Below the pieces are notes generated by a model that saw only the letters and a program-made list of their open reading frames with translations, had not been told where the DNA came from and searched no databases. Below are positions 4,157 to 29,433 of a stretch of DNA of 35,824 nt, one piece after another. The translations under genes and the position numbers were made by a program. This DNA comes from Flavobacterium psychrophilum (GTDB lineage: Bacteria > Bacteroidota > Bacteroidia > Flavobacteriales > Flavobacteriaceae), in the NCBI GenBank assembly GCA_945866505.1, contig CAMBHH010000006.1, positions 1-35,824 on the forward strand, in the 5' to 3' direction. Numbering within the stretch: the stretch's first letter is position 1; each line of letters opens with the position of its first letter.

Positions 4157-4163
4157 AGGAGGA
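4157..4163 (+). promoter_or_regulatory. Strong Shine-Dalgarno site of dnaG
   Basis: AGGAGGA lies 7 nt before the TTG at 4170. It complements the CCUCCU of the 16S rRNA tail over six bases (AGGAGG). It decides the start codon, because the frame has an ATG upstream (4053) but family homology begins at this TTG. Nearly all other start sites in the window lack such a site. Confidence 0.85.
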
Positions 4164-4169
4164 AACAAA

Positions 4170-6158
4170 TTGATTTCAAAAAACACCATAGATACCGTTT
4201 TCGAAACTGCCCGCGTTGAGGAAGTCATTGGGGATTTTGTACAATTAAAACGCGCTGGAAGCAACTTCAAAGGCTTGAGTCCATTTTCAGACGAGCGTTC
4301 ACCCTCATTTATGGTGTCACCAGCCAAAGGAATTTGGAAAGATTTCAGCTCGGGAAAAGGCGGAAATGCAGTAGCTTTCTTGATGGAACATTCCCATTTT
4401 ACTTATCCAGAAGCCATTCGGTTTTTGGCCAAAAAATACAACATCGAAATCGAAGAAACAGAACAAACCGATGAAGAAAAAGCCAATACCGATGTGCGCG
4501 AAAGTATGTATTTAGTTTCTGAATTTGCTAAAGATTATTTTCACAACACCCTTTTACATTCCGAAGAAGGCAAAGCCATTGGGCTTTCTTATTTCAAAGA
4601 AAGAGGATTTACTAGCGAAACGATAAAGAAATTTGCGCTTGGTTATTCATCTGAAACTTGGGATGCTTTCACCAAAGAAGCTTTAGGAAAAGGCTATAAA
4701 TTAGAGTTTCTAGAAAGCACTGGTTTAACAATTCCGAAAGAAGATAGACCTTTCGACCGTTTCAAAGGAAGAGTGATGTTTCCCATTCAAAGTATGTCGG
4801 GAAGGATTTTGGGTTTTGGAGGAAGAATTCTAACCAATGACAAAAAAGCGGCAAAATACCTCAATTCACCCGAAAGTGAAATTTACCACAAGAGTAAAGT
4901 ATTATATGGAATTTTTCAAGCCAAACAAGCCATTGCCAAAGAAAACAATTGTTATTTAGTCGAAGGGTATACCGATGTAATTCAGTTCAATCAAGCGGGT
5001 ATAGAAAATGTAGTCGCTTCGTCGGGAACGGCTTTGACACCAGACCAAATCCGATTAATCAATAGATTAACAAAAAACATTACTGTACTTTTTGACGGTG
5101 ATGCCGCTGGATTGCGCGCTTCTGTTCGTGGAATCGACTTGATTCTCGAAGAAGGAATGAACGTAAAAGTATGTGCTTTCCCTGATGGCGAAGATCCGGA
5201 TAGTTTTGCTAAGAAAACACCTTATGAAGAATTGGTCAAGTATCTTAATGAAAATTCCAAGGATTTTATCCAGTTCAAAGCCTCTTTGTTGATGAATGAT
5301 GCCAAAAATGACCCCATTAAAAAAGCGGATTTAATTCGGGATATGGTGGTGAGTATTTCTAAAATCCCAGACCGGATTCAGCGGGAAATCTACATTCAGG
5401 AATGTTCTCGAATTATGGATATTTCAGAGCAAGTTTTGGTGAGCACTTTGGCACAATTAGTTCAAAAAGACATTTCTGAACTTGGAAAAAAACAAAAAAA
5501 TCCCGCAGCTTCGGGACAAAAAGCTTTTGAAGTTGTCAAAAACGAAACGCCAATTCAGATCCAAAAAGTTGATATTCTTTATGGTTTAGAAAGAAAAATT
5601 ATTGAAATTCTTTTGCTGTACGGCAATAAAACGGAGGAATTTGAAGATGTACTTCTGAAAACAAATGAAGCTGGGGAAATCGAAGATGTAATTGAAAAGA
5701 AAGAGTACAAAGTATTTCAACGCATTTATTTGAGTTTACAAGAAGACGAAGTCGAACTCGCAAATCCGTTGTTCAGGGATATTTACAACAACTTGATAAA
5801 CTATTTTAATCAAAGCGAAAATTTTAGCATCGAACAGTATTTAATGCATTTACATCCTGACTTTGCTCAGGAAGTAACCGATATTTTGATGGCGGACGAA
5901 AAAGCAGTATTGCATAATTGGGAAGGACAAAATATTTTTCCCAAAACAAAAGACCAAACCATAAATCAATATGTTTCTGAAACTATCCTAACTTTACGAT
6001 GGTATTTGGTCGATCGAATCATCGAAGAAATAAAAAGCTCAATATCATCAGAACCTGATTCTGATAACATTGAGCCTTTATCTATGGCTATGGATTATTC
6101 TAAACTTATCAATTCCTTTTCGAAAAAACTAGGACGAGTAATGTCGCGATACAATTAA
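4170..6158 (+). CDS. dnaG: DNA primase DnaG
   Basis: Synthesises RNA primers at the replication fork. The TTG start (662 aa) is chosen because AGGAGGA precedes it and MISKNTIDTVFETARVEEVIGDF is where family similarity begins. Domains in order: an N-terminal CHC2-type zinc-binding fold (about 1-100); a catalytic RNA-polymerase core with Toprim motifs EGYTDV (265-270), DGDAAG (309-314) and PDGEDPD; and a C-terminal helicase-interaction region (about 450-662), weakly conserved. Oddity: all four usual zinc ligands are replaced. The CPFH position reads S37-P-F-S40, and the second pair reads D58-F-S-S61. The flanking motif (SPSFMVSPAKG...GGNAVAFLME) is intact, so the fold is probably kept without zinc. 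The gene converges on the response regulator, and the two stop codons overlap by 3 nt. Confidence 0.97.
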   Translation: MISKNTIDTVFETARVEEVIGDFVQLKRAGSNFKGLSPFSDERSPSFMVSPAKGIWKDFSSGKGGNAVAFLMEHSHFTYPEAIRFLAKKYNIEIEETEQTDEEKANTDVRESMYLVSEFAKDYFHNTLLHSEEGKAIGLSYFKERGFTSETIKKFALGYSSETWDAFTKEALGKGYKLEFLESTGLTIPKEDRPFDRFKGRVMFPIQSMSGRILGFGGRILTNDKKAAKYLNSPESEIYHKSKVLYGIFQAKQAIAKENNCYLVEGYTDVIQFNQAGIENVVASSGTALTPDQIRLINRLTKNITVLFDGDAAGLRASVRGIDLILEEGMNVKVCAFPDGEDPDSFAKKTPYEELVKYLNENSKDFIQFKASLLMNDAKNDPIKKADLIRDMVVSISKIPDRIQREIYIQECSRIMDISEQVLVSTLAQLVQKDISELGKKQKNPAASGQKAFEVVKNETPIQIQKVDILYGLERKIIEILLLYGNKTEEFEDVLLKTNEAGEIEDVIEKKEYKVFQRIYLSLQEDEVELANPLFRDIYNNLINYFNQSENFSIEQYLMHLHPDFAQEVTDILMADEKAVLHNWEGQNIFPKTKDQTINQYVSETILTLRWYLVDRIIEEIKSSISSEPDSDNIEPLSMAMDYSKLINSFSKKLGRVMSRYN

Positions 6159-6784
6159 ACGATTTCTAGTGTTTTGGCTTTGTTAACCAAATCTACTAAA
6201 TTAGTAACGTTCAATTTTTGCAATAGTCTTAGTTTGTAAGTACTTATTGTTTTCTCGTTGAGACCTAAAATTTTGGCAACCTCATTGTTTTTCTTACCGT
6301 CACTCAAATAACGTAGCACCTCTACTTCGCGATTAGAAAGTTTACGGTACAAACGCTCGCTTTTATTTTGCTTCGCAATTAGAGCCATATTTTTCTTTAC
6401 GGTTTCGTCAATGATAATTTTACCTTGATTCACTTTGATAATTGCCTGACCCAAAGTTTCTAGTTTTTCTTTTTGAGAAACGAATCCAGCAACACCTGCT
6501 TTTATAGCGTTTGGCGCATAAATTTGCTCTGAAAGATCACTAAATATAATAATTTTGGTTTTAGGAAAATTTTTCAAGATATTTTTAACTTCAAAAATAC
6601 TAGAAAGACCTTCTAATTCAAGATCCAAAATCAAGACATCAATCTCCTTAGTAAGGAGAATATCTCTTACCATTAAAAAATTCCCTACATTGGCGACTAT
6701 TGAGATACCGTCGTGATCTTTAAAATACGATTTTACCCCGAAATGCACAACCGGATGGTTATTTGCGAAACAAACTTTTATCAT
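6155..6784 (-). CDS. NarL/LuxR-type response regulator with atypical acidic pocket
   Basis: 209 aa. The receiver domain spans about 1-120, with the phospho-acceptor D54 in LILDLELEG, a Ser in the Thr/Ser position (IIFSDLSEQ) and Lys in GFVSQKEK. A LuxR-type helix-turn-helix spans about 145-205 (LSNREVEVLRYLSDG...KTISTYKLRLLQKL). It is therefore a DNA-binding regulator. Oddity: the pair of acidic residues that normally bind Mg2+ near the N-terminus is N8-N9 (CFANNHP), so phosphorylation may be weak or absent. No histidine kinase is adjacent. It lies 89 nt downstream of nadE on the same strand, with only a weak AT hairpin between them. Confidence 0.92.
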   Translation of the reverse strand: MIKVCFANNHPVVHFGVKSYFKDHDGISIVANVGNFLMVRDILLTKEIDVLILDLELEGLSSIFEVKNILKNFPKTKIIIFSDLSEQIYAPNAIKAGVAGFVSQKEKLETLGQAIIKVNQGKIIIDETVKKNMALIAKQNKSERLYRKLSNREVEVLRYLSDGKKNNEVAKILGLNEKTISTYKLRLLQKLNVTNLVDLVNKAKTLEIV

Positions 6785-6827
6785 AATATTAATTTTTAAA
6801 ATTGCCTATATTTTAACAATTAGTAAA

Positions 6828-6849
6828 ATTAATAAAAAAATTTATTAAT
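6828..6849 (-). terminator. Weak AT-rich hairpin downstream of nadE
   Basis: ATTAATAAA (6828-6836) and TTTATTAAT (6841-6849) make a 9-bp stem with a 4-nt loop, followed on the minus strand by TTTTAC. It is pure AT, so termination would be leaky at best. It lies 25 nt after the nadE stop. Confidence 0.3.
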
Positions 6850-6873
6850 CCCACAAAAAATATTAGAAAAATA

Positions 6874-7680
6874 CTACTTAATATCGTTTGCGATAAAACA
6901 AACTGGAATTTCATTCATTTTATGCTGGTTTATGGAATTCAATTTCTTATAAATATCGAACACGATTTTTTCCCTTCCTGAAAAATTTTCGCTGATTTTT
7001 CCCTTTTCATCCTCCAGCATCGCCCACTCTAGTTCATCATAACTAGCACCTAATTGATCTTCATCTGTTCGGTCATCACCAAATAATCCGTCGGTTGGTG
7101 ATGCCTCTAAAATAGAGTTTGGAATTTGCAGATATTTGCCCAAAGCATACACATCCGATTTCATCAAATCTGCAATTGGACTTACATCTACTCCTCCATC
7201 GCCGTATTTTGTGTAAAAACCAACTCCAAAATCTTCCACTTTATTTCCTGTACCAGCAACTAAATAACCATGAATCCCTGCAAAATAATACAAAGTGGTC
7301 ATTCGCATACGAGCTCGAGTATTGGCTAAAGACAAATTTACTTTGTCTACATCGGAAACAACAGGAACAATAGTTTTAAAAGTTTCAAAAAACGGAGTCA
7401 AATCGGCTTTAATAGTAGAAACGTTTGGAAATCTTTTTTTCAATTGTTCAATATGCTCACGACCACGGCTTACGTGACTTGGCGCTTGATGAATAGGCAT
7501 TTCGACACATAAAGTTGGCAAACCAGTTTGCGCACAAAGCGTCGAAGTAACTGCCGAATCGACTCCACCAGAAATCCCTACAACAAAACCATTTACTTTT
7601 GCGTTCTCAGCATAGGTTTTTAACCAATTGACAATATGAATATTTACTTTTTCGACTTGTAGTGTACTTATTTTAGACAT
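6874..7680 (-). CDS. nadE: NAD+ synthase, ammonia-dependent
   Basis: Converts deamido-NAD+ to NAD+ with ATP and ammonia, the last step of NAD biosynthesis. The 268-aa form starting MSKISTLQVEKV is preferred; a longer frame to 7722 would run through the promoter region. The ATP-pyrophosphatase loop SGGVDS is at residues 37-42. Other family motifs present are GTGNKVEDFGVGFYTKYGDGG, DLMKSDVYALGK and PTDGLFGDDRTDE. There is no glutaminase (nitrilase) domain, so it is the short ammonia-using type. It is divergent from gldB, sharing a 150-bp regulatory region. Confidence 0.96.
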   Translation of the reverse strand: MSKISTLQVEKVNIHIVNWLKTYAENAKVNGFVVGISGGVDSAVTSTLCAQTGLPTLCVEMPIHQAPSHVSRGREHIEQLKKRFPNVSTIKADLTPFFETFKTIVPVVSDVDKVNLSLANTRARMRMTTLYYFAGIHGYLVAGTGNKVEDFGVGFYTKYGDGGVDVSPIADLMKSDVYALGKYLQIPNSILEASPTDGLFGDDRTDEDQLGASYDELEWAMLEDEKGKISENFSGREKIVFDIYKKLNSINQHKMNEIPVCFIANDIK

Positions 7681-7685
7681 AATAG

Positions 7686-7719
7686 TTTGGGTTTTTAAAA
7701 TGAAGGTATTGTATATTTG
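7686..7719 (+). promoter_or_regulatory. Putative promoter of gldB-gldC
   Basis: TTTG (7686-7689), a 22-nt spacer, then TATATTTG (7712-7719) fits the Bacteroidota consensus. Transcription would start near 7726 and give a leader of about 100 nt that carries the palindromic repeat at 7738-7816. Confidence 0.6.
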
Positions 7720-7727
7720 CAAAAATA
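7720..7727 (-). promoter_or_regulatory. Putative -7 box of nadE
   Basis: The minus strand reads TATTTTTG, matching TAnnTTTG, and directly abuts the gldB -7 box on the other strand. The leader to the nadE ATG would be about 33 nt. No good -33 box was seen. Confidence 0.5.
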
Positions 7728-7737
7728 ATAATTTTCA

Positions 7738-7816
7738 GGAGCTATTCCCGCTATCCGCTGTAATCTTTTACTTTTTAAAGAAAAAAGTAAAAGGATTTCC
7801 ACTGCTATCGGGGCTA
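7738..7816. repeat. Large palindromic repeat in the gldB leader
   Basis: The core AATCTTTTACTTTTT (7762-7776) pairs with AAAAAGTAAAAGGATT (7782-7797) with one bulge. Outer arms AGC..CCCGCTATC..C and GCTATCGGGGCT extend the fold imperfectly. This wording is a recurrent flavobacterial intergenic repeat as I recall it. It would sit in the untranslated leader, ending 11 nt before the gldB ATG. Confidence 0.6.
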
Positions 7817-7827
7817 AAAAAAATAAA

Positions 7828-8793
7828 ATGAGAAGAATCCTTTTTATAATTACCATAATAATTGCTTTCGTTTCTTGTGACAAAAAATCGAAAGTTGAAA
7901 AAGCAGTCGAAGAAATCCCTATGGAACTCAAAGTAGAACGCTTTGACAAACTGTTTTTTGAAACTGCGCCAGAAGATTTAGGTCAACTAAAGAACCAATT
8001 TCCGTTTTTTTTTCCATCAGGAAATAATGATAGCGTATGGCTCAATAAAATGAAAGATCCACTTTGGCGGGAATTGTATACCGAAGTGCAAAAAAAATAC
8101 TCCAATTTTGACCCTGTTCAAAAAGAACTGAACACTCTTTTTAAACACATAAAGTTTTATTTTCCGGAAAGTAAAACTCCAAAACTAATCACCGTAATTT
8201 CGGAAATGGATTATAACAATAAGGTTATTTACACGGACAGTTTATTAATTATTTCTCTAGAATTGTATTTGGGCAAAAACCATAAGTTTTATCAATTCCC
8301 CAACTATCTAAAACAAAATTTCGAGCAAAAACAAATCCTTCCGGATGTAGTTTCGAGTTTTTCTGCGCAAAAAATAGCACCAATTAGAGATACGTCTTTT
8401 TTGAGTCAGATGATCTATTTTGGAAAACAATTGTATCTAAAGGATTTACTTCTGCCTGACTTTTCAGATGGGGACAAAATAGGTTATACACCAGAACAAA
8501 ATAAATGGTGTGAGGAAAACGAAAGCTATATGTGGCGGTATTTTCTGGAAAACGAATTGCTGTATAGCAAAGATCCAAAATTGGGTAATCGCTTTATAAA
8601 TACTGCTCCATTTTCTAAATTTTATCTCGAAATTGACAATGAATCTCCAGGAAAAGTCGGCACTTGGATAGGTTGGCAAATGGTGCGGTCTTATATGAAT
8701 AATAACGATGTGCCGCTAGAAACAATGCTAAAAATGAATGCAAAAGAACTATTTGAAAAATCTAAATACAAACCTAAAAAAAATGGCGAATAA
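7828..8793 (+). CDS. gldB: Gliding motility lipoprotein GldB
   Basis: 321 aa, the usual length of the family. The N-terminus MRRILFIITIIIAFVSC is a lipoprotein signal peptide with the lipobox ending at C17, so the protein should be lipid-anchored in the cell envelope. The rest matches GldB-type wording (MELKVERFDKLFFE near the start; GTWIGWQMVRSYM near the end). GldB is required for gliding in Flavobacterium johnsoniae; its exact biochemical role is not settled. The reading frame overlaps gldC by 11 nt, so the two are co-translated from one mRNA. Transcription probably begins in the shared promoter region with nadE. Confidence 0.95.
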   Translation: MRRILFIITIIIAFVSCDKKSKVEKAVEEIPMELKVERFDKLFFETAPEDLGQLKNQFPFFFPSGNNDSVWLNKMKDPLWRELYTEVQKKYSNFDPVQKELNTLFKHIKFYFPESKTPKLITVISEMDYNNKVIYTDSLLIISLELYLGKNHKFYQFPNYLKQNFEQKQILPDVVSSFSAQKIAPIRDTSFLSQMIYFGKQLYLKDLLLPDFSDGDKIGYTPEQNKWCEENESYMWRYFLENELLYSKDPKLGNRFINTAPFSKFYLEIDNESPGKVGTWIGWQMVRSYMNNNDVPLETMLKMNAKELFEKSKYKPKKNGE

Positions 8794-9118
8794 CAATACA
8801 TCCCAAATTAAGATAAATGTCCAATTAGACGAAAACCGAGTTCCCGAAAAACTGTCGTGGGCTGCGGTTGAAGGCGGAGTAGAACTTGAAGAAGCAAAAG
8901 CATTTATGCTTTCAGTTTGGAACAGTGACGAAAAATCGACAAAATGTATCGAATTGTGGACAAAAGATATGGCTGTTGATGATATGAAAATCTTTTTTCA
9001 TCAAACCTTGCTTTCGATGACAGAAACTTTTCAAAGAGCTACGGGCGACGAAAAAATGTCGGCAACGATGCAAGACTTTTGCGATTATTTTGCAGAGAAA
9101 TTGGAATTGAAGAAATAG
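8783..9118 (+). CDS. gldC: Gliding motility protein GldC
   Basis: 111 aa starting MANNNTSQIKINVQLDENRVPEK. The longer frame back to 8738 would lie inside gldB and is not needed. There is no signal peptide, so it is a small cytoplasmic protein. Family features are the KINVQLDENRVPEKLSWAA opening, the EAKAFMLSVW motif and the C-terminal DFCDYFAEKLELKK. In F. johnsoniae gldC is in an operon with gldB, and its loss makes gliding weaker rather than abolishing it. A palindrome at 9131-9185 probably ends the transcript. Confidence 0.95.
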   Translation: MANNNTSQIKINVQLDENRVPEKLSWAAVEGGVELEEAKAFMLSVWNSDEKSTKCIELWTKDMAVDDMKIFFHQTLLSMTETFQRATGDEKMSATMQDFCDYFAEKLELKK

Positions 9119-9130
9119 AAATCTAAAAGG

Positions 9131-9185
9131 AAATTCCAAATTCCTATTGTAATGATTGGAATTTGGAATTTGGAATTTGGAATTT
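9131..9185. terminator. Heptamer-built palindrome between convergent gldC and ysxC
   Basis: AATTCCAAATTCC (9132-9144) pairs perfectly with GGAATTTGGAATT (9158-9170) across a 13-nt loop. The right arm continues as a tandem GGAATTT heptamer, four copies at 9158-9185. The position between two converging genes suggests a bidirectional transcription stop. The 13-mer AAATTCCAAATTC recurs at 28501-28513 by the 3' end of rpoD. Confidence 0.6.
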
Positions 9186-9205
9186 TAATTTTTGGAATTT
9201 CCGTT

Positions 9206-9826
9206 TTAAAACTCACTATTGTTCTTAAAAACTTCTTGATTTACTTCCTCAATATAGCTTAAAACTTCCTCTTTTCCTGTAGATTCGGTTGCAGAAGTAA
9301 CAAAATACTGAGGCATTTCCGCCCAATTATTGGCAAACATTTGCTTTTTGTAAGCTGCAATGTGCGAATCAATTTTTACTTTACTGATTTTATCGGCTTT
9401 GGTAAAAATGATGCAAAACGGAATTTCACTTTCGCCCATATACGCCATAAATTCGATATCGATATTTTGCGCTTCGTGCCGAATGTCAATCAAAACAAAA
9501 GCACAAACAAGTTGCTCTCTCGTCTCGAAATAATCAGTGATAAATTGTTGAAAAACAGACTTTGTTTTCTTCGAGACTTTGGCATAACCATAACCAGGCA
9601 AATCGACCAAAAACCAATTGTTATTGATTTTAAAATGATTGATCAATTGTGTTTTACCGGGTCTTCCTGAAGTTTTTGCCAAATTTTTATGATTGGTCAG
9701 CATATTTATCAAGGAAGATTTCCCAACATTGGATCGGCCTATAAAAGCATATTCTGGCAAAAAGTCTTTCGGACATTTATACACTTCGGAGTTGCTAACA
9801 ATAAATTCTGCTGTGTTAATTTTCAT
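9206..9826 (-). CDS. ysxC: Ribosome biogenesis GTPase YsxC/EngB
   Basis: 206 aa, the normal family length. Essential GTPase that acts in assembly of the 50S ribosomal subunit. GTPase motifs: G1 GRSNVGKSS (about 30-38), the G2 region SGRPGKTQLINHF, G3 DLPGYGYA, G4 TKADK and G5 TSAT. It starts only 11 nt after the stop of the upstream alpha/beta hydrolase on the same strand, so the two probably share a transcript. It ends convergently with gldC. Confidence 0.96.
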   Translation of the reverse strand: MKINTAEFIVSNSEVYKCPKDFLPEYAFIGRSNVGKSSLINMLTNHKNLAKTSGRPGKTQLINHFKINNNWFLVDLPGYGYAKVSKKTKSVFQQFITDYFETREQLVCAFVLIDIRHEAQNIDIEFMAYMGESEIPFCIIFTKADKISKVKIDSHIAAYKKQMFANNWAEMPQYFVTSATESTGKEEVLSYIEEVNQEVFKNNSEF

Positions 9827-9837
9827 GAGTTAAGTAC

Positions 9838-10611
9838 TTAGTGTGCTTTTAAATGAGTATTAGAAAGCCATTCTTCAAGCAAACGATTGAACTCATCGGG
9901 GCGTTCCATCATTGCGGCATGTCCACATTTTTCGATCCAATATAAGGTCGTATTTGGCAATAATTCGTTAAATTCTTCTGCAACAGAAGGTGGTGTCACA
10001 AAGTCATTTCTTCCCCAAATTAAGCAAGTTTGAACATGCATTTTTGGCAAATCTTTCGCCATATTATGACGTATAGCACTTTTTGCAATGGTCAACGTTT
10101 TTATCAATTTGATTCTATCGTTTACCGATGCATATACTTCGTCAACAAGTTCCTTAGTAGCCATTTTTGGGTCATAAAAAACATCTTGCGCTTTCTTTTT
10201 TATATATTCATAATCCCCTCTTTTAGGATAACTGTCACCCATAGCACTTTCATAAAGCCCTGAACTACCGGTTAGTACAAGACCAGCCACTTTTTCAGGG
10301 TACATCTTTGTATGGTACAAAGCGATGTGTCCCCCAAGTGAATTCCCCAACAAAATAACTCTGTCAAATCCTTTGTACGTAATAAAATCCTTCACATACC
10401 TTGCAAATGCCTTCACATTAGTTTTTAAAATACTTTGAGTGTAAATTGGCAAATCGGGTATTACAATTTTATATCCTTTCTCAGAAAAATGATTGGCGAC
10501 AGCATCAAAATTGCTCAAACCTCCCATTAAACCATGCAAGACAACAATTGGAGTTCCTTCGCCAGCTTCATAATAGCTGTATTTACCATCTTTTTTATAG
10601 TGCTTTTCCAT
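9838..10611 (-). CDS. Alpha/beta hydrolase
   Basis: 257 aa, a single alpha/beta-hydrolase domain without signal peptide, so cytoplasmic. The oxyanion-hole motif LHGLMGG is at about 24-30, the nucleophile elbow GNSLGG is near residue 90, the acid is in IWGRNDFVTPP and the catalytic His is in KCGHAAMMERPDEF. The substrate cannot be read from sequence; the MhpC-like family contains esterases, C-C hydrolases and lipases. It is the first gene of a probable two-gene operon with ysxC. It is divergent from mraZ, with 372 bp between. Confidence 0.9.
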   Translation of the reverse strand: MEKHYKKDGKYSYYEAGEGTPIVVLHGLMGGLSNFDAVANHFSEKGYKIVIPDLPIYTQSILKTNVKAFARYVKDFITYKGFDRVILLGNSLGGHIALYHTKMYPEKVAGLVLTGSSGLYESAMGDSYPKRGDYEYIKKKAQDVFYDPKMATKELVDEVYASVNDRIKLIKTLTIAKSAIRHNMAKDLPKMHVQTCLIWGRNDFVTPPSVAEEFNELLPNTTLYWIEKCGHAAMMERPDEFNRLLEEWLSNTHLKAH

Positions 10612-10639
10612 ACGATTTATCGCAATTTTTCAATTTCAA

Positions 10640-10647
10640 CAAATATA
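10640..10647 (-). promoter_or_regulatory. Putative -7 box of the hydrolase-ysxC operon
   Basis: The minus strand reads TATATTTG, an exact TAnnTTTG match, 28 nt before the ATG at 10611. No spaced -33 TTG is visible. Confidence 0.45.
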
Positions 10648-10787
10648 GGTTATAAAAAATTAAAAAGAATTTTTGAAATCAAATTTTATGCATTTAAAGT
10701 AATAAAAATTGTTAATAACTATATCGATTTCTTTTTTTAGAATTTCTAAATATAGTTCTTTCAAATTTCAATTTAAAATAATTTTTT

Positions 10788-10858
10788 TGCATTATTATAA
10801 CCGATTTGTTTCTGAAATTCAACAATTCTTAACAAAGTATTAAAAATCGGCTAATGCA
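10788..10858. repeat. Imperfect inverted repeat upstream of mraZ
   Basis: TGCATTA (10788-10794) and CCGATTT (10801-10807) are mirrored by AAATCGG (10844-10850) and TAATGCA (10852-10858), with unequal gaps. It lies mid-way in the 372-bp gap between the hydrolase and mraZ. It could be a regulator site or an old repeat. No gene is visible in this gap. Confidence 0.4.
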
Positions 10859-10890
10859 CTGATTCACTAAAAACTAGTCGTTTTTAATGA

Positions 10891-10940
10891 GAAGTGGTAA
10901 AACTTATTAACAAAGTGGTAAATTGTGGTAAATTGTGGTA
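10891..10940 (+). promoter_or_regulatory. Putative MraZ operator: four GTGGTAA repeats
   Basis: GTGGTA occurs at 10894, 10915, 10925 and 10935, spacing 21,10,10. The last three form 7+3 units (AAAGTGG-TAA, ATTGTGG-TAA, ATTGTGG-TAA). MraZ proteins of other phyla bind tandem 10-bp-spaced direct repeats upstream of their own gene (TGGGN-type in E. coli, AAAGTG[T/G]-type in mollicutes). The array ends 10 nt before the -7 box and 44 nt before the mraZ start, so it overlaps the -33 region, as expected of an autorepressor site. Confidence 0.75.
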
Positions 10941-10950
10941 ATAAATTTTA

Positions 10951-10958
10951 TATTTTTG
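10951..10958 (+). promoter_or_regulatory. -7 box of the mraZ/dcw promoter
   Basis: TATTTTTG matches TAnnTTTG. The nearest upstream TTG elements lie inside the GTGGTAA repeats, at spacers of 15 and 25 nt, neither ideal. The predicted leader is about 20 nt to the TTG start at 10984. Confidence 0.6.
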
Positions 10959-10983
10959 CTCAACATCTTTTATAAATTTCACC

Positions 10984-22714: not shown

Positions 22715-23426
22715 TTGGACAAATATTCGATTAATACTAATGTTTTCATTGGTCATCTTTTTGTATTCGTTTACATCGGATCGCAATAATAACAGAAAAT
22801 TGTCAAAATCTACGGTTGTTTTTGTAGGAGAAGACGCGCCGTATGTGAGTCAAGAAACGGTTAATAAATTGTTAATAGAAAATAATAAAGACGCTAAAAG
22901 TATAGGTAAAGATAAATTAAATTTGAACAAATTGGAAAAAAGGCTGAACTCACACGAAATGATAGAAAAATCTGATGTGTTTGTGAGCATTGATGGGGTA
23001 ATGAAAGCAGTAGTGAAACAAAAAACTCCAGTAGCTCGAGTTTTTGATGGAGACAATTCTTTCTACATTGATTATAAAGGGAATAAGATGCCATTATCGG
23101 CAAATTATACAGCTAGAGTTCCACTTGTTTCGGGGGTAATAAATAAAAAAAACAGCGAAAAATTAGCCAAATTATTTCGTATCATACATGACGATGAGTT
23201 TTTGAAAAAAAACATCATTGGTGTTCAGATTATGCCAAAAGGAAGCTTAATATTATTGAACAGAAATTATAATTATCAAATTGATTTTGGTGGAACAGTA
23301 AGAATGAACGCCAAACTGAATAATTATAAAGTTTTTTTTCAAAAAGCGATTTTAGATAGTTCGTTAAATAAATACAAAACCATCGACTTGAGATTTGCGC
23401 AGCAAGTGGTATGTACTAAAAAATAG
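22701..23426 (+). CDS. ftsQ: FtsQ-like cell division protein
   Basis: 241 aa. One membrane helix near the N-terminus (about 9-25, IRLILMFSLVIFLYSF), then a periplasmic part. In FtsQ proteins that part contains a POTRA domain followed by a beta domain that binds FtsL and FtsB. Sequence conservation is low, as is usual for the family, so the call rests on topology, length, the ending MPKGSLILLNRNYNYQIDFG...KTIDLRFAQQVVC, and position between murC and ftsA. It overlaps murC by 14 nt and is 3 nt from ftsA. Confidence 0.88.
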   Translation: MKHFNWTNIRLILMFSLVIFLYSFTSDRNNNRKLSKSTVVFVGEDAPYVSQETVNKLLIENNKDAKSIGKDKLNLNKLEKRLNSHEMIEKSDVFVSIDGVMKAVVKQKTPVARVFDGDNSFYIDYKGNKMPLSANYTARVPLVSGVINKKNSEKLAKLFRIIHDDEFLKKNIIGVQIMPKGSLILLNRNYNYQIDFGGTVRMNAKLNNYKVFFQKAILDSSLNKYKTIDLRFAQQVVCTKK

Positions 23427-23429
23427 AAA

Positions 23430-24797
23430 ATGGAAAAAGAGAATATTGCAGTAGGACTTGATATTGGGACAACAAAAATAGTTGCCATGATAGGCAAAAA
23501 AAATGAGTACGGTAAACTAGAAATTCTTGGCGTTGGAAAATCCAAAAGTCTTGGCGTAGCTAGAGGTGTTGTTAACAATATCACTCAAACCATTCAATCT
23601 ATTCAGCAAGCGGTGCTTGAAGCAGAAAACAAATCAGGTTACAAAATAAATAATGTGGTTGTAGGAATTGCAGGCCAGCATATTCGTAGTATTCAACATA
23701 GTGATTATATCATAAGAAACAATGCAGAGGAAGTGATTTCTGGAAATGACATTCAACTTTTGATAGAACAAGTAAACAAGTTGGCTATGTTGCCGGGCGA
23801 AGAAATTATACATGTTTTGCCACAAGAATACAAAATCGACGGACAATCCGATATTAAAGAACCTATAGGAATGTATGGCGGCAGATTAGAATCGAGTTTC
23901 CACGTAGTGGTAGGACAAGCATCGTCAATTCGCAACGTTGCAAGGTGCGTTCAAAGTGCCAACATTGAACTCTCAGGCTTAACTTTGGAACCACTTGCTT
24001 CGGCAAATGCGGTTTTAAGCCAAGAAGAAAAAGAAGCAGGTGTTGCATTGATAGATATTGGAGGTGGAACAACAGATTTGGCGATTTTCAAAGACGGCAT
24101 TATTCGCCACACAGCCGTAATCCCTTTTGGTGGAAATGTAATCACCGATGACATTAAAGAAGGATGTTCTATTATTGAAAAACAAGCTGAATTATTGAAG
24201 GTTAAATTTGGATCAGCTTGGCCTGGAGAAAATAAAGACAATGAAATCGTTTCAATTCCAGGTTTAAGAGGAAGAGACCCAAAGGAAATTTCGCTAAAGA
24301 ATTTGTCAAAAATAATTCACGCACGTGTTGTTGAAATAATTGAACAAGTATTTACAGAAATCAAAGAGTACGGACACGATGATCCACGAAAAAAGTTGAT
24401 CGCTGGAATAGTTTTGACTGGTGGAGGTTCTCAATTGAACCACATCAAACAATTAGTAGAATATATTACAGGAATCGATACTAGAATTGGCTATCCAAAC
24501 GAACATTTAGCTGGCAACTCTGATGAGGAAATATCCTGCCCATTGTATGCAACCGTAGTAGGCTTGGTGATGAATAGCATTGAAAACAAAACGCAAAGTG
24601 CTGTCAAATTAGAACAACATACAGAAGCTAAAATCGTTAGACCGCCAATAATTGAAATTATTGAAGAGGAGATAATAAAAGATGAGATACAAAATAAAAT
24701 AACACCTCAACCTGTAACAACTTCAAACAAAAAAAACTTTTTTGACTTAAGCGGTTACTTGGGAAAAATTAAAGAATTCTTAGACAACGCAGAATAA
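23430..24797 (+). CDS. ftsA: Cell division protein FtsA
   Basis: 455 aa actin-like ATPase that tethers FtsZ to the membrane. Phosphate-1 motif VGLDIGTTKIVAMIG (about 8-22), phosphate-2 motif LIDIGGGTTDLAIF and adenosine motif GIVLTGGGSQLN. The SHS2-type 1C domain follows the first motif (GVARGVVNNITQTIQSIQQAV). After a linker rich in Glu, Ile and Pro, the C-terminus FFDLSGYLGKIKEFLDN forms an amphipathic helix, the usual membrane-targeting sequence. It is followed by a 39-nt AT-rich gap before ftsZ that contains about 2.5 copies of TAAAATAA (24807-24826). Confidence 0.96.
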   Translation: MEKENIAVGLDIGTTKIVAMIGKKNEYGKLEILGVGKSKSLGVARGVVNNITQTIQSIQQAVLEAENKSGYKINNVVVGIAGQHIRSIQHSDYIIRNNAEEVISGNDIQLLIEQVNKLAMLPGEEIIHVLPQEYKIDGQSDIKEPIGMYGGRLESSFHVVVGQASSIRNVARCVQSANIELSGLTLEPLASANAVLSQEEKEAGVALIDIGGGTTDLAIFKDGIIRHTAVIPFGGNVITDDIKEGCSIIEKQAELLKVKFGSAWPGENKDNEIVSIPGLRGRDPKEISLKNLSKIIHARVVEIIEQVFTEIKEYGHDDPRKKLIAGIVLTGGGSQLNHIKQLVEYITGIDTRIGYPNEHLAGNSDEEISCPLYATVVGLVMNSIENKTQSAVKLEQHTEAKIVRPPIIEIIEEEIIKDEIQNKITPQPVTTSNKKNFFDLSGYLGKIKEFLDNAE

Positions 24798-24836
24798 AGA
24801 AAAAATTAAAATAATAAAATAATAAAAACCCATAAG

Positions 24837-26771
24837 ATGATGAGCAACTCAGAATTTGGCAGTATTTCTTTTGATTTACCAAAAAACCAATCAAATGTAA
24901 TAAAAGTTATAGGTGTTGGTGGAGGCGGAAGTAATGCCATAAACCACATGTTCAAGCAAGGTATTAGAGGCGTAGATTTTATCGTTTGCAATACCGATTC
25001 TCAAGCTTTAGACAACAGTTCAGTGCCTAATAAAATTCAATTAGGCGTTCACTTAACTGAAGGACTTGGTGCAGGAGCAAATCCTGATGTAGGACAACAA
25101 TCAGCGATAGAAAGTATTGCTGAAATAGAAAAAATGCTTGACAGCAACACCAAAATGGTTTTTATCACCGCAGGAATGGGTGGAGGAACGGGTACAGGTG
25201 CAGCGCCAGTAATTGCTCAATTGGCGAAAGAAAGAGATATTTTAACAGTAGGAATCGTAACATTGCCGTTTTCCTTCGAAGGAAAAGTTCGACTAGAACA
25301 AGCACAGAATGGTATTAACAAACTGCGCAAACAAGTCGATTCTTTGATTGTAATCAATAACAATAAACTTAGAGAAGTATATGGAAATTTAGGCTTCAAA
25401 GCCGGATTTTCTAAAGCCGATGAAGTTTTGGCTACAGCCTCAAGAGGTATCGCAGAAGTAATCACACACCACTATACTCAAAATATAGATTTAAAAGACG
25501 CCAAAACAGTTTTGGCCAATAGTGGAACAGCGATAATGGGATCCGCAGTTTCTACTGGTGCTAATAGAGCAAAAGAAGGTATAATTTCAGCTTTAGATTC
25601 TCCTCTATTAAACGACAATAAAATTACTGGAGCCAAAAACGTATTGTTGCTCATCGTTTCTGGTGCAGATGAAATCACAATTGATGAAATTGGAGAAATC
25701 AACGATTATATCCAAAATGAAGCAGGACACAATGCCAATATTATTATGGGTGTAGGTGAAGATGAGACTCTAGGAGATTCAATATCTGTAACCATAATTG
25801 CAACCGGTTTTGATATCGAACAACAACGCGAAATTGTAAATGTTGAACCTCCAAAGATTATTCACACACTTGGTGACGATCAAAAAAACGAGTACGATTT
25901 GACAAAAACAACAGTTCCCTCATTTCATCATGAAACGGAAACGCCTGTCTCTAAAACCGAAGACCGAATTGTCTTTGAACTTTTAGAAGAAGAACAAGAA
26001 GTTGTTGAAGCCCCTGCAAAAGTTATTCTAAAAAGCGAGGAACTCATGGGTATGAATGAGTTTATTAAAAATTTAGATGTGACATTCGAAATTATTTCAC
26101 CTATTAAAGACTTAGATTTTGTTGTATCATCAGCAGAGGTTAAACAAATAGAAGTTGTTGAAGCAAAAATATATGAAAAGGAAGAACAAGCTACTTTATC
26201 ATTCGAATTACCACTTTTTAAGACTGAAACAGCAAAAAAGGAAGAAACTAGAACTTTATTTGAACTAAGTAATGAAACAAGGGATATTAAAGTAAATGAA
26301 CCAATACAATTTGTTCCAGTAACTGAACTGACAGAAAATGGAATCATACGCTATACTCTTGAAGAATATACCGAAGTGGAAAATGCATTGCTAGGCTCAA
26401 AACCTGCTACAGCAATAGTTGTAGAAGAAATTCCAGAAGAATTAAATATCACCATGAAAAAGATTAATGTCACCGACAACGAAGTTGTTACTTTTGAACA
26501 TATTTCTCCAATGGATATGACAATTAAGGAATCGATGAAATTAAGAACTGATGAAAGAAGAAAAAAATTAAAAGAATTTAATTATAAATTCCATAATTCT
26601 ATTTCAAAAGTGGACGAATTAGAAAGAGTACCTGCTTATCAAAGACAAAATATAGAACTTTCAAAAGGACAAACCACTGGAATGAATTCAAGAATTTCAT
26701 TGGGAACAGACAGCAATGACGACCTTCAATTGAGATCAAACAACTCGTTCCTGCATGATAATGTTGACTAA
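24837..26771 (+). CDS. ftsZ: Cell division GTPase FtsZ with long C-terminal extension
   Basis: 644 aa, far longer than the typical 350-400. The tubulin-like GTPase domain (about 15-325) has GVGGGGSNAINHM, the tubulin signature GGGTGTG at 115-121, NNNKLREVYG and the T7-loop region DEIGEINDYIQNEAG. The linker (about 326-597) is acidic and rich in E, V, I and T, and probably disordered. The motif VPAYQRQ (598-604) looks like the conserved FtsA-binding tail (consensus PAFLRKQ-like). A further 40 residues follow, ending DSNDDLQLRSNNSFLHDNVD, a wording I associate with flavobacterial FtsZ. Two starts (ATG ATG at 24837 and 24840) are possible. It is the last gene of the cluster, with a strong terminator after it. 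Confidence 0.97.
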   Translation: MMSNSEFGSISFDLPKNQSNVIKVIGVGGGGSNAINHMFKQGIRGVDFIVCNTDSQALDNSSVPNKIQLGVHLTEGLGAGANPDVGQQSAIESIAEIEKMLDSNTKMVFITAGMGGGTGTGAAPVIAQLAKERDILTVGIVTLPFSFEGKVRLEQAQNGINKLRKQVDSLIVINNNKLREVYGNLGFKAGFSKADEVLATASRGIAEVITHHYTQNIDLKDAKTVLANSGTAIMGSAVSTGANRAKEGIISALDSPLLNDNKITGAKNVLLLIVSGADEITIDEIGEINDYIQNEAGHNANIIMGVGEDETLGDSISVTIIATGFDIEQQREIVNVEPPKIIHTLGDDQKNEYDLTKTTVPSFHHETETPVSKTEDRIVFELLEEEQEVVEAPAKVILKSEELMGMNEFIKNLDVTFEIISPIKDLDFVVSSAEVKQIEVVEAKIYEKEEQATLSFELPLFKTETAKKEETRTLFELSNETRDIKVNEPIQFVPVTELTENGIIRYTLEEYTEVENALLGSKPATAIVVEEIPEELNITMKKINVTDNEVVTFEHISPMDMTIKESMKLRTDERRKKLKEFNYKFHNSISKVDELERVPAYQRQNIELSKGQTTGMNSRISLGTDSNDDLQLRSNNSFLHDNVD

Positions 26772-26793
26772 CTAAATCAAACGCAAGTTTTTT

Positions 26794-26827
26794 AACCCGA
26801 AAATTGAATCAATTTTCGGGTTTTTTT
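26794..26827 (+). terminator. Rho-independent terminator of the dcw cluster
   Basis: AACCCGAAAATTG (26794-26806) pairs perfectly with CAATTTTCGGGTT (26810-26822), a 13-bp stem with a 3-nt loop, followed by TTTTT. It begins 23 nt after the ftsZ stop. Confidence 0.95.
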
Positions 26828-26852
26828 GTCAATATACTAGTAAAGTAAACTG

Positions 26853-26883
26853 TTGCTAATTCCATTAAAATACTATAAATTTG
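26853..26883 (+). promoter_or_regulatory. Promoter of yqeY
   Basis: TTG (26853-26855), a 20-nt spacer and TAAATTTG (26876-26883) is the best consensus promoter in the window. The leader of about 90 nt holds a short hairpin, CCCGAATCTTCGGG (26934-26947). Confidence 0.7.
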
Positions 26884-26949
26884 TTCTCCGATTGTTAAAG
26901 AGACTTTTTGTTTTTAAAAATCTGAAATATGATCCCGAATCTTCGGGCT

Positions 26950-26977
26950 TACAATCTAAAATCATAAATTATAAATT
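26950..26977 (+). repeat. Four heptamers before yqeY
   Basis: TACAATC, TAAAATC, ATAAATT and ATAAATT run head to tail and end 3 nt before the ATG at 26981. TAAAATC is the same unit as in the mraY leader. Confidence 0.7.
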
Positions 26978-26980
26978 AGC

Positions 26981-27430
26981 ATGAGCTTATCAACACAAAT
27001 AATGGAGGATATCAAAACCGCCATGAGAGCCAAAGATACTGTAGCATTAGAAGCTTTAAGAGCGATTAAATCTGAAATTCTTTTAGCGCAAACCGCAACA
27101 GGATCAAAAGAAGAAATCTCCGCAGCAGATGAAATTAAATTACTTCAAAAATTAGTGAAAACCCGCAAGGACAGCGCTAAAATTTTTACGGAACAAAACC
27201 GTATGGATCTTGCTGAACCAGAATTGGCTCAAATTGCCGTTATCGAAAAATTCCTTCCGGCACAAATGAGTGAAGCTGAAGTAGAAGCTGTAATTGCAAA
27301 AATCATTGCGGAAACAGGCGCATCAGGCATCGCTTCTATGGGAAAAGTAATGGGAATCGCATCTGCACAATTGGGAGGAACTGCCGAAGGGAAGACGATT
27401 TCGACAATTGTTAAGAAACTTTTGGTTTAA
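26981..27430 (+). CDS. yqeY: GatB/YqeY domain protein
   Basis: 149 aa, the usual length of stand-alone YqeY proteins. They share a helical domain with the tRNA-binding C-terminus of the amidotransferase subunit GatB. The exact role is unknown; a link to tRNA-dependent amidation has been suggested from the fold only. Motifs: MEDIKTAMRAKDTVALEALRAI near the start, KLLQKLVKTRKDSAKIF in the middle and SMGKVMGIASAQLGGTAEGK near the end. No membrane segment or signal peptide. It has its own promoter and leader. The tRNA-Arg gene begins 81 nt after the stop. Confidence 0.93.
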   Translation: MSLSTQIMEDIKTAMRAKDTVALEALRAIKSEILLAQTATGSKEEISAADEIKLLQKLVKTRKDSAKIFTEQNRMDLAEPELAQIAVIEKFLPAQMSEAEVEAVIAKIIAETGASGIASMGKVMGIASAQLGGTAEGKTISTIVKKLLV

Positions 27431-27511
27431 TTTTAGAAAATAGAATATAGACTTAATTCAAAAAAAGCTAGTCTTTTCTCTTTGTTCTATTTTCTTTTCT
27501 CTTTAAATATT

Positions 27512-27585
27512 GGCTTCGTAGTTCAACTGGATAGAATTTCAGATTTCGGCTCTGAAGGTTGCAGGTTCGAACCCTGCCGAGGTCA
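27512..27585 (+). tRNA. tRNA-Arg (anticodon UCG)
   Basis: The cloverleaf folds by eye: acceptor GGCTTCG with CGAGGTC plus discriminator A; D arm GTTC/GAAT; anticodon stem TCAGA/TCTGA with loop TTTCGGC, giving anticodon TCG; T arm GCAGG-TTCGAAC-CCTGC. It reads CGA/CGN codons. The CCA end is not encoded (CAC follows the acceptor). It would be transcribed alone or by read-through from yqeY and is followed 3 nt later by a hairpin. Confidence 0.95.
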
Positions 27586-27588
27586 CAA

Positions 27589-27620
27589 AAAATATCCGAA
27601 GTTAACGCTTCGGATATTTT
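27589..27620. terminator. Bidirectional terminator between tRNA-Arg and rpe
   Basis: AAAATATCCGAAG (27589-27601) and CTTCGGATATTTT (27608-27620) form a 13-bp stem with a 6-nt loop. The A-rich left and T-rich right ends serve both strands: tRNA-Arg on plus and rpe, ending at 27642, on minus. Confidence 0.85.
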
Positions 27621-27641
27621 GTATAAAACAACTTTATAATT

Positions 27642-28304
27642 TTAGAAACAAGTCAACTTCTTCAATTCGGAGATAGTTTGAATCGGGTTTTCCGCTTTAA
27701 AAACAAAGTTTCCAGCGACCAAAACATCTGCTCCAGCATCTACTAATTGCTTTGCGTTTTTATTGTTCACACCGCCGTCAATTTCGATAATGGTATTTGC
27801 TCCTTTTCTATTGATTAAATCTTTTAATTTTCTAACTTTAGAATAGGTGTTTTCAATAAACGATTGTCCGCCAAAACCAGGATTCACACTCATTATGCAA
27901 ACCATATCGATATCATTGATAACTTCTTCTAATAAATCGACATTCGTATGTGGATTTAAGGCAACACCAGCTTTCATACCTTCTTCTTTGATGGCCTGCA
28001 AGGTTCTATGAAGATGTGGACAAGCTTCGTAATGAACCGATAAGATATTCGCTCCTAATTCAGCAAAAGTTTTGATATATCGATCTGGATCCACAATCAT
28101 CAAATGAACATCAATTGTTTTCTTGGCGTGTCTTGCAATAGCATCTAAAACAGGCATCCCAAAAGAAATATTAGGAACAAAAACACCATCCATAATATCA
28201 ATGTGAAACCAATCGGCTTCTGAATTGTTAACCATTTCGATGTCACGTTGTAAATTAGCAAAATCTGCTGCAAGAACTGATGGTGCGATAAGTGTATTCT
28301 TCAT
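27642..28304 (-). CDS. rpe: Ribulose-phosphate 3-epimerase
   Basis: 220 aa TIM-barrel enzyme interconverting D-ribulose 5-phosphate and D-xylulose 5-phosphate in the pentose phosphate pathway. Metal and catalytic residues are in their expected motifs: APSVLAADFANL (start), WFHIDIMDGVFVPN (His/Asp), DVHLMIVDP (His) and IEIDGGVN (Asp), with the phosphate loop SVNPGFGGQSF. Full length, cytoplasmic, single domain. It has its own promoter at 28361-28394 with a palindrome over the -33 box, and is not linked to a carbon-pathway operon here. Confidence 0.97.
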   Translation of the reverse strand: MKNTLIAPSVLAADFANLQRDIEMVNNSEADWFHIDIMDGVFVPNISFGMPVLDAIARHAKKTIDVHLMIVDPDRYIKTFAELGANILSVHYEACPHLHRTLQAIKEEGMKAGVALNPHTNVDLLEEVINDIDMVCIMSVNPGFGGQSFIENTYSKVRKLKDLINRKGANTIIEIDGGVNNKNAKQLVDAGADVLVAGNFVFKAENPIQTISELKKLTCF

Positions 28305-28360
28305 TTTATGCTGAATTTATTTCAGCATCTTTTAATACTGAAAATAGTTAATTATTTGTA

Positions 28361-28394
28361 CAAAAGTAAATTATAATTAGAGAACTTGAAACAA
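28361..28394 (-). promoter_or_regulatory. Putative promoter of rpe
   Basis: The minus strand has TTG (28392-28394), a 23-nt spacer and TACTTTTG (28361-28368), matching the Bacteroidota consensus. The leader is about 50 nt. Confidence 0.55.
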
Positions 28395-28398
28395 GTTC
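28382..28398. promoter_or_regulatory. Perfect inverted repeat over the rpe -33 box, possible operator
   Basis: GAACTTG (28382-28388), AAA, CAAGTTC (28392-28398): a perfect 7-bp inverted repeat with a 3-bp centre that covers the predicted -33 element. No T run follows on either strand, so a regulator site is more likely than a terminator. Confidence 0.45.
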
Positions 28399-28401
28399 AG
28401 G

Positions 28402-28436
28402 TTAAAAAATAAAACCTCGGTAATCAGCCGAGGTTT
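28402..28436 (-). terminator. Terminator of rpoD
   Basis: On the minus strand AAACCTCGG and CCGAGGTTT (28412-28420 with 28428-28436) form a 9-bp stem, followed by TATTTTTTAAC. It lies about 120 nt after the rpoD stop. Confidence 0.85.
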
Positions 28437-28493
28437 CAATCATCAATCAAAAAACGAACAGTTAATCAGACCGTCGTTAACGTTAAAGTTCCA

Positions 28494-28542
28494 AAATTTG
28501 AAATTCCAAATTCTAAATGTGTGCGAATGGAATTTGAAATTT
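28494..28542. repeat. Inverted repeat at the 3' end of rpoD
   Basis: AAATTTGAAATTCCA (28494-28508) against TGGAATTTGAAATTT (28528-28542), 14 of 15 paired. It shares AAATTCCAAATTC with the gldC-ysxC palindrome, suggesting a dispersed family near gene ends. It lies 12 nt beyond the rpoD stop. Confidence 0.6.
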
Positions 28543-28554
28543 GTCTGTTGGAAT

Positions 28555-29418
28555 TTATCCTAAATAGGTTTTCAATATTTTACTTCTTGAAGTATGTTTC
28601 AATCTTCGGATGGCTTTTTCTTTAATTTGACGAACGCGCTCACGAGTCAGGTCAAAAGTTTCCCCTATTTCTTCTAATGTCATTGGATGTTGATCGCCAA
28701 GACCAAAATACAAACGAACCACATCAGCTTCTCTTGGCGTCAATGTCTCTAATGAACGCTCGATTTCAGTGCGTAATGATTCTTGGATTAAGTTTCTATC
28801 TGGATTTGGAGATTCCCCAGAACGCAATACATCGTATAGATTCGAATCTTCTCCTTCAACAAGCGGTGCATCCATAGAAAGGTGACGACCTGAGTTTTTC
28901 ATAGATTCTCTAACGTCATTTACGGTCATATCCAATTCTTTGGCGATTTCCTCAGCTGTTGGTGGTCTTTCGTTAGATTGCTCTAACAATGCATACATTT
29001 TATTGATTTTGTTGATAGAACCAATTTTGTTCAATGGCAAACGAACGATACGAGATTGTTCTGCCAATGCTTGTAAAATCGATTGACGAATCCACCAAAC
29101 GGCATACGAAATGAATTTAAAACCACGGGTTTCATCAAAACGTTGTGCAGCTTTTATCAAACCTAAATTTCCTTCATTAATCAAATCGGGAAGTGTCAAT
29201 CCTTGATTTTGGTATTGTTTGGCCACCGAAACAACGAAACGTAAATTGGCTTTTGTCAATTTTTCTAATGCTGCCTGATCACCGGCTTTTATCTTTTGTG
29301 CCAATTCCACTTCTTCATCGGCTGTAATCAAATCTACCTTTCCAATTTCTTGTAAATACTTGTCTAACGATGCAGTTTCCCGATTGGTTACCTGCTTGGT
29401 GATTTTAAGTTGTCTCAT
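28555..29418 (-). CDS. rpoD: Primary sigma factor RpoD (Bacteroidota type, no region 1.1)
   Basis: 287 aa from the ATG at 29418 ([14 protein letters not shown]), chosen over the frame to 29466 because GGAGGA precedes it and family similarity starts here. Region 1.2 (about 17-45), region 2 (about 59-115, [19 protein letters not shown]...[11 protein letters not shown]), region 3 (about 120-200) and region 4 (about 235-287, [14 protein letters not shown] ... [18 protein letters not shown]) are complete. Region 1.1 and the long non-conserved insert of E. coli sigma-70 are absent, as in other Bacteroidota, whose primary sigma recognises TTTG/TAnnTTTG promoters. It is monocistronic with its own terminator. 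Confidence 0.97.
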
Positions 29419-29426
29419 GTTTTTGT

Positions 29427-29433
29427 CTCCTCC
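29427..29433 (-). promoter_or_regulatory. Strong Shine-Dalgarno site of rpoD
   Basis: The minus strand reads GGAGGAG, with 8-10 nt to the ATG at 29418. Together with dnaG it is one of only two such sites before genes in the window, and it identifies the start codon. Confidence 0.85.

Follow-up and report, generated by a model that had tools for sequence, protein, structure and literature searches.

A conserved ECF-type promoter motif upstream of rpoD in Flavobacteriales, and the Shine-Dalgarno-like sites of dnaG and rpoD in Flavobacterium psychrophilum

The stretch of DNA analyzed here (35,824 nucleotides of Flavobacterium psychrophilum, contig CAMBHH010000006.1; hereafter "the window") carries dnaG and the gene for the primary sigma factor, rpoD. 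In E. coli, these genes form the operon rpsU-dnaG-rpoD; in the window, by contrast, 22 kb separate dnaG from rpoD, which is on the other strand, and the two have no conserved leader element in common. An earlier note on this DNA had pointed to strong Shine-Dalgarno (SD) sites before both genes, and had proposed that these sites keep dnaG and rpoD co-regulated with rpsU through the pool of ribosomes lacking the protein bS21. In this report, we describe a different kind of signal upstream of rpoD, namely a motif with the features of a promoter for an extracytoplasmic function (ECF) sigma factor, whose conservation is far above that of the SD-like element.

The SD sites themselves are present. 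Gene starts were scored with a gapless nearest-neighbor helix score against the tail of 16S rRNA, the last bases of which were assumed, and a start was called SD-like at -4 kcal/mol or better. Among the 29 starts scored in the window, only those of dnaG (-8.49 kcal/mol, AGGAGG) and rpoD (-6.86, GGAGG) reach this value, at the positions and with the singularity that the earlier note had claimed; murG has AGGA alone, as said there, and scores -2.7. The letters GGAGG are common in the window (29 copies on the two strands, 19.5 expected), so it is position, not presence, that marks the dnaG and rpoD sites. In a search of 30 genomes, three (those of loci L003, L005 and L011) have an RpoD 100% identical (rounded) to the window's.

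The ECF-type motif of the window, TGTAAC-N17-CGTATAA, occupies positions -65 to -36 relative to the rpoD start (Table 1), and came to light when the regions upstream of rpoD were compared across loci. When 98 such regions were counted with the pattern TGTAAC-N15-19-CGTA, 85 contained it: 44 of 44 Flavobacterium-like loci, 14 of 14 other Flavobacteriaceae-like loci, 19 of 20 Chryseobacterium-like loci and 8 of 20 in a mixed set, with group names assigned from RpoD identity and locus titles. The letters TAA after CGTA, which fall outside the required pattern, are 92-96% conserved among the 76 regions with a 17-base spacer. An AAC-type -35 element and a CGT -10 element at a fixed spacing, the mark of an ECF-type promoter, are thus found in 85 of the 98 regions. 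This consensus is ECF-like and near to the sites of Bacillus SigW and SigX. In F. psychrophilum, which has seven ECF sigmas, a CGT -10 box has been read as ECF-type (Guerin 2021, PMC9723704).

Table 1. Features of the dnaG and rpoD start regions, in window coordinates.
Feature	Positions	Strand	Basis or conservation
TAnnTTTG box (TATCTTTG), housekeeping -7 type, upstream of dnaG	4133..4140	+	Sequence match to the TAnnTTTG consensus
AGGAGGA, dnaG SD-like site, 6 nt ahead of TTG (4170)	4157..4163	+	-8.49 kcal/mol; missing in 80/80 relatives
dnaG coding region, TTG start	4170..6158	+	Translation, orthologues
Coding region of rpoD (primary sigma factor, 287 aa)	28555..29418	-	Translation, RpoD model matches, orthologues
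Stretch from the -10-like element to the rpoD start; presumed transcript start and short leader	29419..29453	-	Sequence
GGAGGAG, rpoD SD-like site, 8 nt ahead of ATG (29418)	29427..29433	-	-6.86 kcal/mol; moderately kept in Flavobacterium-like genomes
CGTATAA, -10-like element, 17 bases after TGTAAC	29454..29460	-	Spacer of 17 in 76 and of 16 in 9 of 85 upstreams
TGTAAC, -35-like element of the rpoD ECF-type promoter	29478..29483	-	Exact, with CGTA, in 85/98 rpoD upstreams

Across 196 genomes of the order, 178 of which gave an RpoD match, the strict pattern stands directly before the rpoD start in 96, and its reversed control in none. In the genomes searched as a whole, it is also nearly confined to this gene. 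Genome-wide searches of 12 genomes returned 14 exact sites, ten at rpoD and four elsewhere (control, 8); an extended pattern with one mismatch, applied to 12 partly different genomes, returned 23, of which 12 were at rpoD and 11 elsewhere (control, 11). In the 12 genomes of each search, only the site at rpoD stands above control; a degenerate regulon too weak for these searches to detect is possible. A literature search of titles and abstract openings found neither a prior claim of an ECF promoter for rpoD nor any account of how the rpoD gene is controlled in Bacteroidota.

Several genomes depart from the simple arrangement of one rpoD gene behind one such site. Locus L114 (genome G216) has two tandem rpoD-like genes, one with the full ECF-type promoter and the other with a degenerate upstream region. 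Genomes G132, G139, G163 and G197 have, besides the main gene, a second full-length RpoD-like gene whose product is about 80-82% identical to RpoD of the window. At loci without the exact site (L155, L156, L159, L237, L238, L241 and L338-L340), rpoD often comes directly after the end of another frame. In such genomes rpoD may be read from the upstream gene, and the preceding frames end, by eye, in a similar C-terminal stretch.

Which sigma factor might read this promoter? Region-2 matches were collected from 16 small genomes, ten with the rpoD site and six without; all sigma loci were fetched, save that G037 is represented by six of its nine non-RpoD loci, and the site status of G025, which is outside the 196-genome draw, comes from separate upstream and genome-wide scans. 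One sigma, here called ECF-B, is present in nine of the ten genomes with the site (at least 78 bits) and in none of the six without it (best match, 51 bits). Another, ECF "A", was rejected as the reader of the site, being present in both kinds of genome. A profile of the nine ECF-B sequences divides the 196 genomes in agreement with this split and is bimodal: 106 genomes match at 2.4e-43 or below, and the rest at 5.6e-32 or above or not at all.

Once 18 genomes that lack RpoD and two with only a weak sigma match are set aside, the remaining 176 comprise 89 with both promoter and ECF-B, seven with the promoter only, nine with ECF-B only and 71 with neither (Fisher 1.5e-30, uncorrected for kinship). 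Most of the nine ECF-B-only genomes have a related site: three have an exact one farther upstream (G031, G047 and G198) and five have a variant with one base changed in the -35 element, the remaining one being G042. Counted in this manner, the site is known from 97 of 98 ECF-B-positive genomes (92 exact, five one-base variants), versus 8 of 78 negative ones. The pattern is retained among genomes of at least 2 Mb (62 both, one promoter only, three ECF-B only with the site farther out, 24 neither), and the 13 of the 98 rpoD upstreams that lack the site all come from ECF-B-negative genomes.

By its Pfam and NCBIfam matches, ECF-B is a true ECF sigma: the 183-residue protein scores above cut-off against PF04542 (43.5 bits) and PF08281 (47.1 bits), and reaches 104.3 bits against TIGR02937 (cut-off, 42.9). 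Among the best 25 of 90 NCBIfam models, this superfamily model alone exceeds its threshold; of the named models, SigW scores highest, at 125.5 bits versus a cut-off of 209, and matches in a protein search are named only "RNA polymerase sigma factor" or similar. Twelve ECF-B loci were fetched, the gene was located in eight, and neighbors were named by eye. A lipA-like gene lies downstream in five of these eight, and a glycosyltransferase-like gene upstream in four; no anti-sigma gene beside ECF-B was recognized by eye in the eight loci. TAnnTTTG boxes were seen upstream of ECF-B in three loci (L333, L334 and L336). In the Flavobacterium-type loci, the ECF-B gene probably starts at a TTG that lies about 97 nt upstream of the ATG used. 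The window has an ECF-type sigma of its own (34841-35377, minus strand; Pfam sigma regions 2 and 4), which by sequence does not bear the ECF-B signature; it is followed by a gene for a 494-residue protein (33353-34837, minus strand) with no Pfam or NCBIfam match.

The alternative that fares best is a translational one, namely that in Flavobacterium a functional SD, present at rpoD alone, provides a modest and possibly bS21-sensitive input. Of 59 related rpoD starts, 39 pass the -4 cut-off, versus 1 of 59 when a mock window placed farther upstream is scored; by group, the counts are 33 of 44 Flavobacterium-like loci (L081-L109 and L111-L125) and 6 of 14 others (L126-L139). A larger orthologue set gives 49 of 86 versus 4 of 86 in the mock window (the loci of the different searches overlap, and their rows are not independent), and control sets of at least 52 members give 0/80 (dnaG), 0/75, 1/66, 0/60 and 0/52. 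The high score of -14.7 for rsmH was set aside, since the orthologue positions behind it do not correspond to homologous starts. The core letters vary (GAGGAG, AGGGAG, AAGGAG, AGGAG, AAAGGAG), whereas the spacing to the start is steady at 8-11 nt. This half of the earlier proposal is therefore sustained as regards the existence of the element, but not as regards its strength: pairing in the Flavobacterium-like loci amounts to 5-7 bp at -5.2 to -7.1, the best value among relatives being -7.36. Judged by its conservation, the element is real but moderate and belongs to the clade; it might aid initiation slightly in Flavobacterium.

Other observations argue against giving it a larger role. At the -4 cut-off, it is gone in 11 of the 44 Flavobacterium-like loci, two of which stand at -3.97; the second tandem copy of L114, scored apart from the two groups, narrowly fails the cut at -3.97 as well. 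The Chryseobacterium-like leaders (L160-L175; G087, G174, G212 and G222) may, by eye, open with a small hairpin whose arms change together from clade to clade (CTC/GAG, AACCT/AGGTT, GTCC/GGAC), and in several of them GAGG can be the 3' arm. Further, engB shows that GGAGG can persist at a distance unsuited to an SD. Although 20 of the 65 engB orthologues pass the -4 cut-off, their helices stop 15-17 nt short of the start, and engB was rejected as a further SD gene. A GGAGGU upstream of engB (the orthologue of window 9206-9826) is kept in a subclade (L033, L036, L063 and L079) at 16 nt from the start, too far for an SD, and is possibly an element of another kind. Taken together, a working rpoD SD with such a modest input is a possibility to which we give some credence, though we would not favor it. 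As a separate matter, a seven-codon frame, ATGGAGGAGACAAAAACATGA (29415-29435, minus strand), contains the SD-like site and overlaps the rpoD start as ATGA; its ATG is not retained in most of the relatives compared, which have TTGAGG there.

A second alternative accepts the ECF-type promoter but assigns it to a different ECF sigma, or to more than one, with ECF-B sharing no more than its ancestry. A number of points weigh against ECF-B as the reader, and some of them favor this alternative. Seven genomes (G057, G059, G091, G142, G147, G156 and G186) have the promoter without ECF-B, and an eighth without it, G151, has an exact site with a 16-base spacer 38 nt before the start. One-base variants were sought in all five leftover ECF-B-positive genomes but in only 16 ECF-B-negative ones, where G151 was the one match. 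Of the 71 genomes with neither feature, 31 are smaller than 1 Mb. In a tree of 86 RpoD genes, built with a quick method, a mean of 3.7 independent contrasts agree with the association, none oppose it and 2.3 show no difference; these contrasts are few (p 0.125), and kinship could be the source of the correlation. Guerin 2021 (PMC9723704) suggests that ECF regulons overlap in F. psychrophilum; its table of selected ECF-type promoters does not include rpoD, and its main text contains the word "rpoD" 0 times.

The class as a whole offers evidence of both kinds. In a draw of 80 genomes, ECF-B is present in 59 at 1e-36, and the strict site is rare, occurring in seven, all of them ECF-B-positive. 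Sixty rpoD upstreams were fetched (40 ECF-B-positive, 20 ECF-B-negative; where a genome had several RpoD genes, as some did, the best was taken). TGTAAC-N16-18-CGTA is found in five of the 40 positive upstreams and in none of the 20 negative ones. Because the strict pattern was so infrequent in the class, a less strict form, TGNAAC-N16-18-CGT within 400 nt, was tried; it occurs in 18 of 40 ECF-B-positive versus 3 of 20 ECF-B-negative upstreams (0.75 of 60 in shuffles; Fisher p 0.025). Set against the doubts are the division of the 16 small genomes, in which ECF-B and not ECF "A" goes with the site, and the agreement of the 196-genome profile with it. We therefore regard another reader of the rpoD promoter as rather unlikely, and ECF-B as the leading candidate.

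It is less likely still that the conserved block is an operator, or a variant of a housekeeping promoter, and no promoter of an ECF sigma. In its favor, further letters are conserved 3' of the block in Flavobacterium (TTGTACACTT in many leaders). Against it, the block consists of two separate parts whose spacer is 16 or 17 only, it contains no TAnnTTTG, and it resembles the sites of Bacillus SigW and SigX; its CGT -10 box, moreover, is of the kind called ECF-type in Guerin 2021 (PMC9723704). We consider this explanation improbable, and return to an ECF-type promoter as the probable nature of the block.

The SD-like site of dnaG has a different standing from that of rpoD. Its relatives were the best 80 of 544 confirmed stretches from a DnaG scan of genome contigs, with titles that are mostly Flavobacterium and in a few cases another genus or the family only. 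In none of the 80 does AGGA, GGAG or GAGG occur within 22 nt of the dnaG start, and the strongest pairing among them is -1.3. The site was accordingly discarded as a conserved signal. The earlier note had further held that the weak TTG start would increase the dependence of dnaG on its SD; TTG proves to be ordinary (74 of 80 relatives, with ATG in the other six), and since it is kept where no SD exists, it does not imply such dependence. In 1.06 Mb of relatives' DNA, AGGAGG stands at SD spacing before open reading frames of at least 100 codons in six cases, four of which have at least 75 open codons upstream (one has 371) and so lie inside longer frames; at this frequency, an occasional chance site per genome is to be expected. 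The dnaG site is, by this comparison, evidently private to the lineage of the window, its relatives using a bare TTG. The box upstream of dnaG in Table 1 matches TAnnTTTG, the housekeeping -7 consensus (PMC9723704).

The proposed link to bS21 is likewise doubtful when rpoD is set beside rpsU. Of 30 rpsU leaders, 29 were scored: ten reach -16.6 to -19.3 with the canonical 16S tail, 13 reach -13.2 with an alternative tail and six have no SD. Of 36 genomes examined for the tail, 28 showed it (10 canonical, 18 alternative; the tails were seen up to CCTTT or CATTT, and the last bases used in scoring were assumed), and the rpsU site covaries with the alternative anti-SD. The rpoD leaders do not clearly do so. 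In the alternative-tail set (the Chryseobacterium-like L160-L179, 18 of the 20 genomes having the alternative tail), 12 of 20 pair worse with the alternative tail than with the canonical one, seven pair better and one does neither; 11 of the 12 fall to -1.4 to -3.1 from -4.0, and six of the seven rise to -8.3 to -9.2 from -5.4. Neither dnaG nor rpoD of the window approaches an extended SD stronger than -13 kcal/mol, although our helix score is not free_scan and comparison with the values of McNutt 2023 is rough only. The rpoD-type promoter, for its part, was rejected for rpsU, the site being absent from the 70 nt upstream in 21 rpsU leaders.

According to McNutt 2023 (PMC9976891), bS21 mutants did not respond to AGGA placed before tuf, whereas AGGAGGU gave a response of more than 2-fold, and the typical number of outlier genes among 200 Flavobacteriales was one, rpsU. 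That reporter response means that the window's dnaG AGGAGG could respond to bS21 in this one organism. Mentions of dnaG and rpoD number zero in the main text of that paper and in PMC8710568, and our search of titles and abstract openings found no claim of SD control for either gene. It is thus highly improbable that shared strong SDs couple dnaG, rpoD and rpsU to the pool of bS21-less ribosomes: both sites exist, the rpoD element is kept in most Flavobacterium-like loci, six leaders gain with their own alternative tail and the AGGAGGU reporter responded, but the absence of the dnaG site from all 80 relatives leaves a common dnaG-rpoD regulon unsupported, rpoD pairs mostly at -5 to -7 against -13.2 to -19.3 for rpsU, most alternative-tail rpoD leaders lose by that tail, and AGGA before tuf was inert.

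Known systems help to place both elements. Like rpoD, the rpsU of Flavobacterium johnsoniae, which is autoregulated by bS21-less ribosomes, has a conserved SD-like element in an SD-poor genome; it differs in its extended pairing and in its covariation with the tail. For the promoter, the closest parallel is ShbA-hrdB of Streptomyces, in which an ECF-type sigma is aimed at the principal sigma gene and has very few targets, the in vitro targets of ShbA being hrdB and shbA only (PMC9205884). That system belongs to another phylum, and the rpoD case is known from motif and co-distribution alone. ShbA also reads its own gene, whereas no exact TGTAAC-N15-19-CGT was seen before the ATG of ECF-B in eight loci, where the upstream region is partly covered and the ATG is internal in four Flavobacterium-type loci. 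The likeness is therefore one of mode of action, and we claim neither membership nor orthology. Within the Bacteroidota, the ECF-type promoters of the SM6 set (F. psychrophilum) and of SigP (P. gingivalis) share the CGT -10 box with the rpoD promoter, although the genes listed for them are those of type IX secretion and others, with rpoD absent from the selection presented. Bacillus SigW, the best named model for ECF-B, has a large envelope-stress regulon and an anti-sigma. ECF-B differs from it in falling under the SigW cut-off and in having no large regulon that we could see.

The motif has a constant spacing, is conserved, is nearly unique in 12 genomes and is distributed together with ECF-B. 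On these grounds we think it probable that the strong sites of dnaG and rpoD are unrelated and that the conserved control of rpoD is transcriptional, exerted at an ECF-type promoter whose most likely reader is ECF-B. In such a scheme, ECF-B would bind the ECF-type site and transcribe rpoD; the site would be the main rpoD promoter, ahead of a short leader; the ECF-B gene would itself be read by the RpoD holoenzyme; and the mutual loop so formed would steady the supply of the primary sigma. The SD of rpoD would be a small translational input added in Flavobacterium. More tentatively, and with the scales close to even, we suggest that in much of the Flavobacteriales, and in a looser form in other Bacteroidia, ECF-B may serve mainly for rpoD and RpoD may read ECF-B, so that a two-sigma loop would set the supply of the primary sigma, with the Flavobacterium SD as a second input.

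For the biology of these bacteria, one consequence is that dnaG falls out of any bS21 regulon; a single strong SD in one genome is weak evidence without its relatives. The other concerns rpoD. The supply of the primary sigma governs how transcription is shared among all genes, and in the Bacteroidota both RpoD and the promoters are unusual. A conserved, apparently single-target ECF promoter, together with one candidate sigma, provides a model of how that supply may be set, which can be tested directly in a laboratory species, and would parallel the ShbA-hrdB system of a distant phylum.

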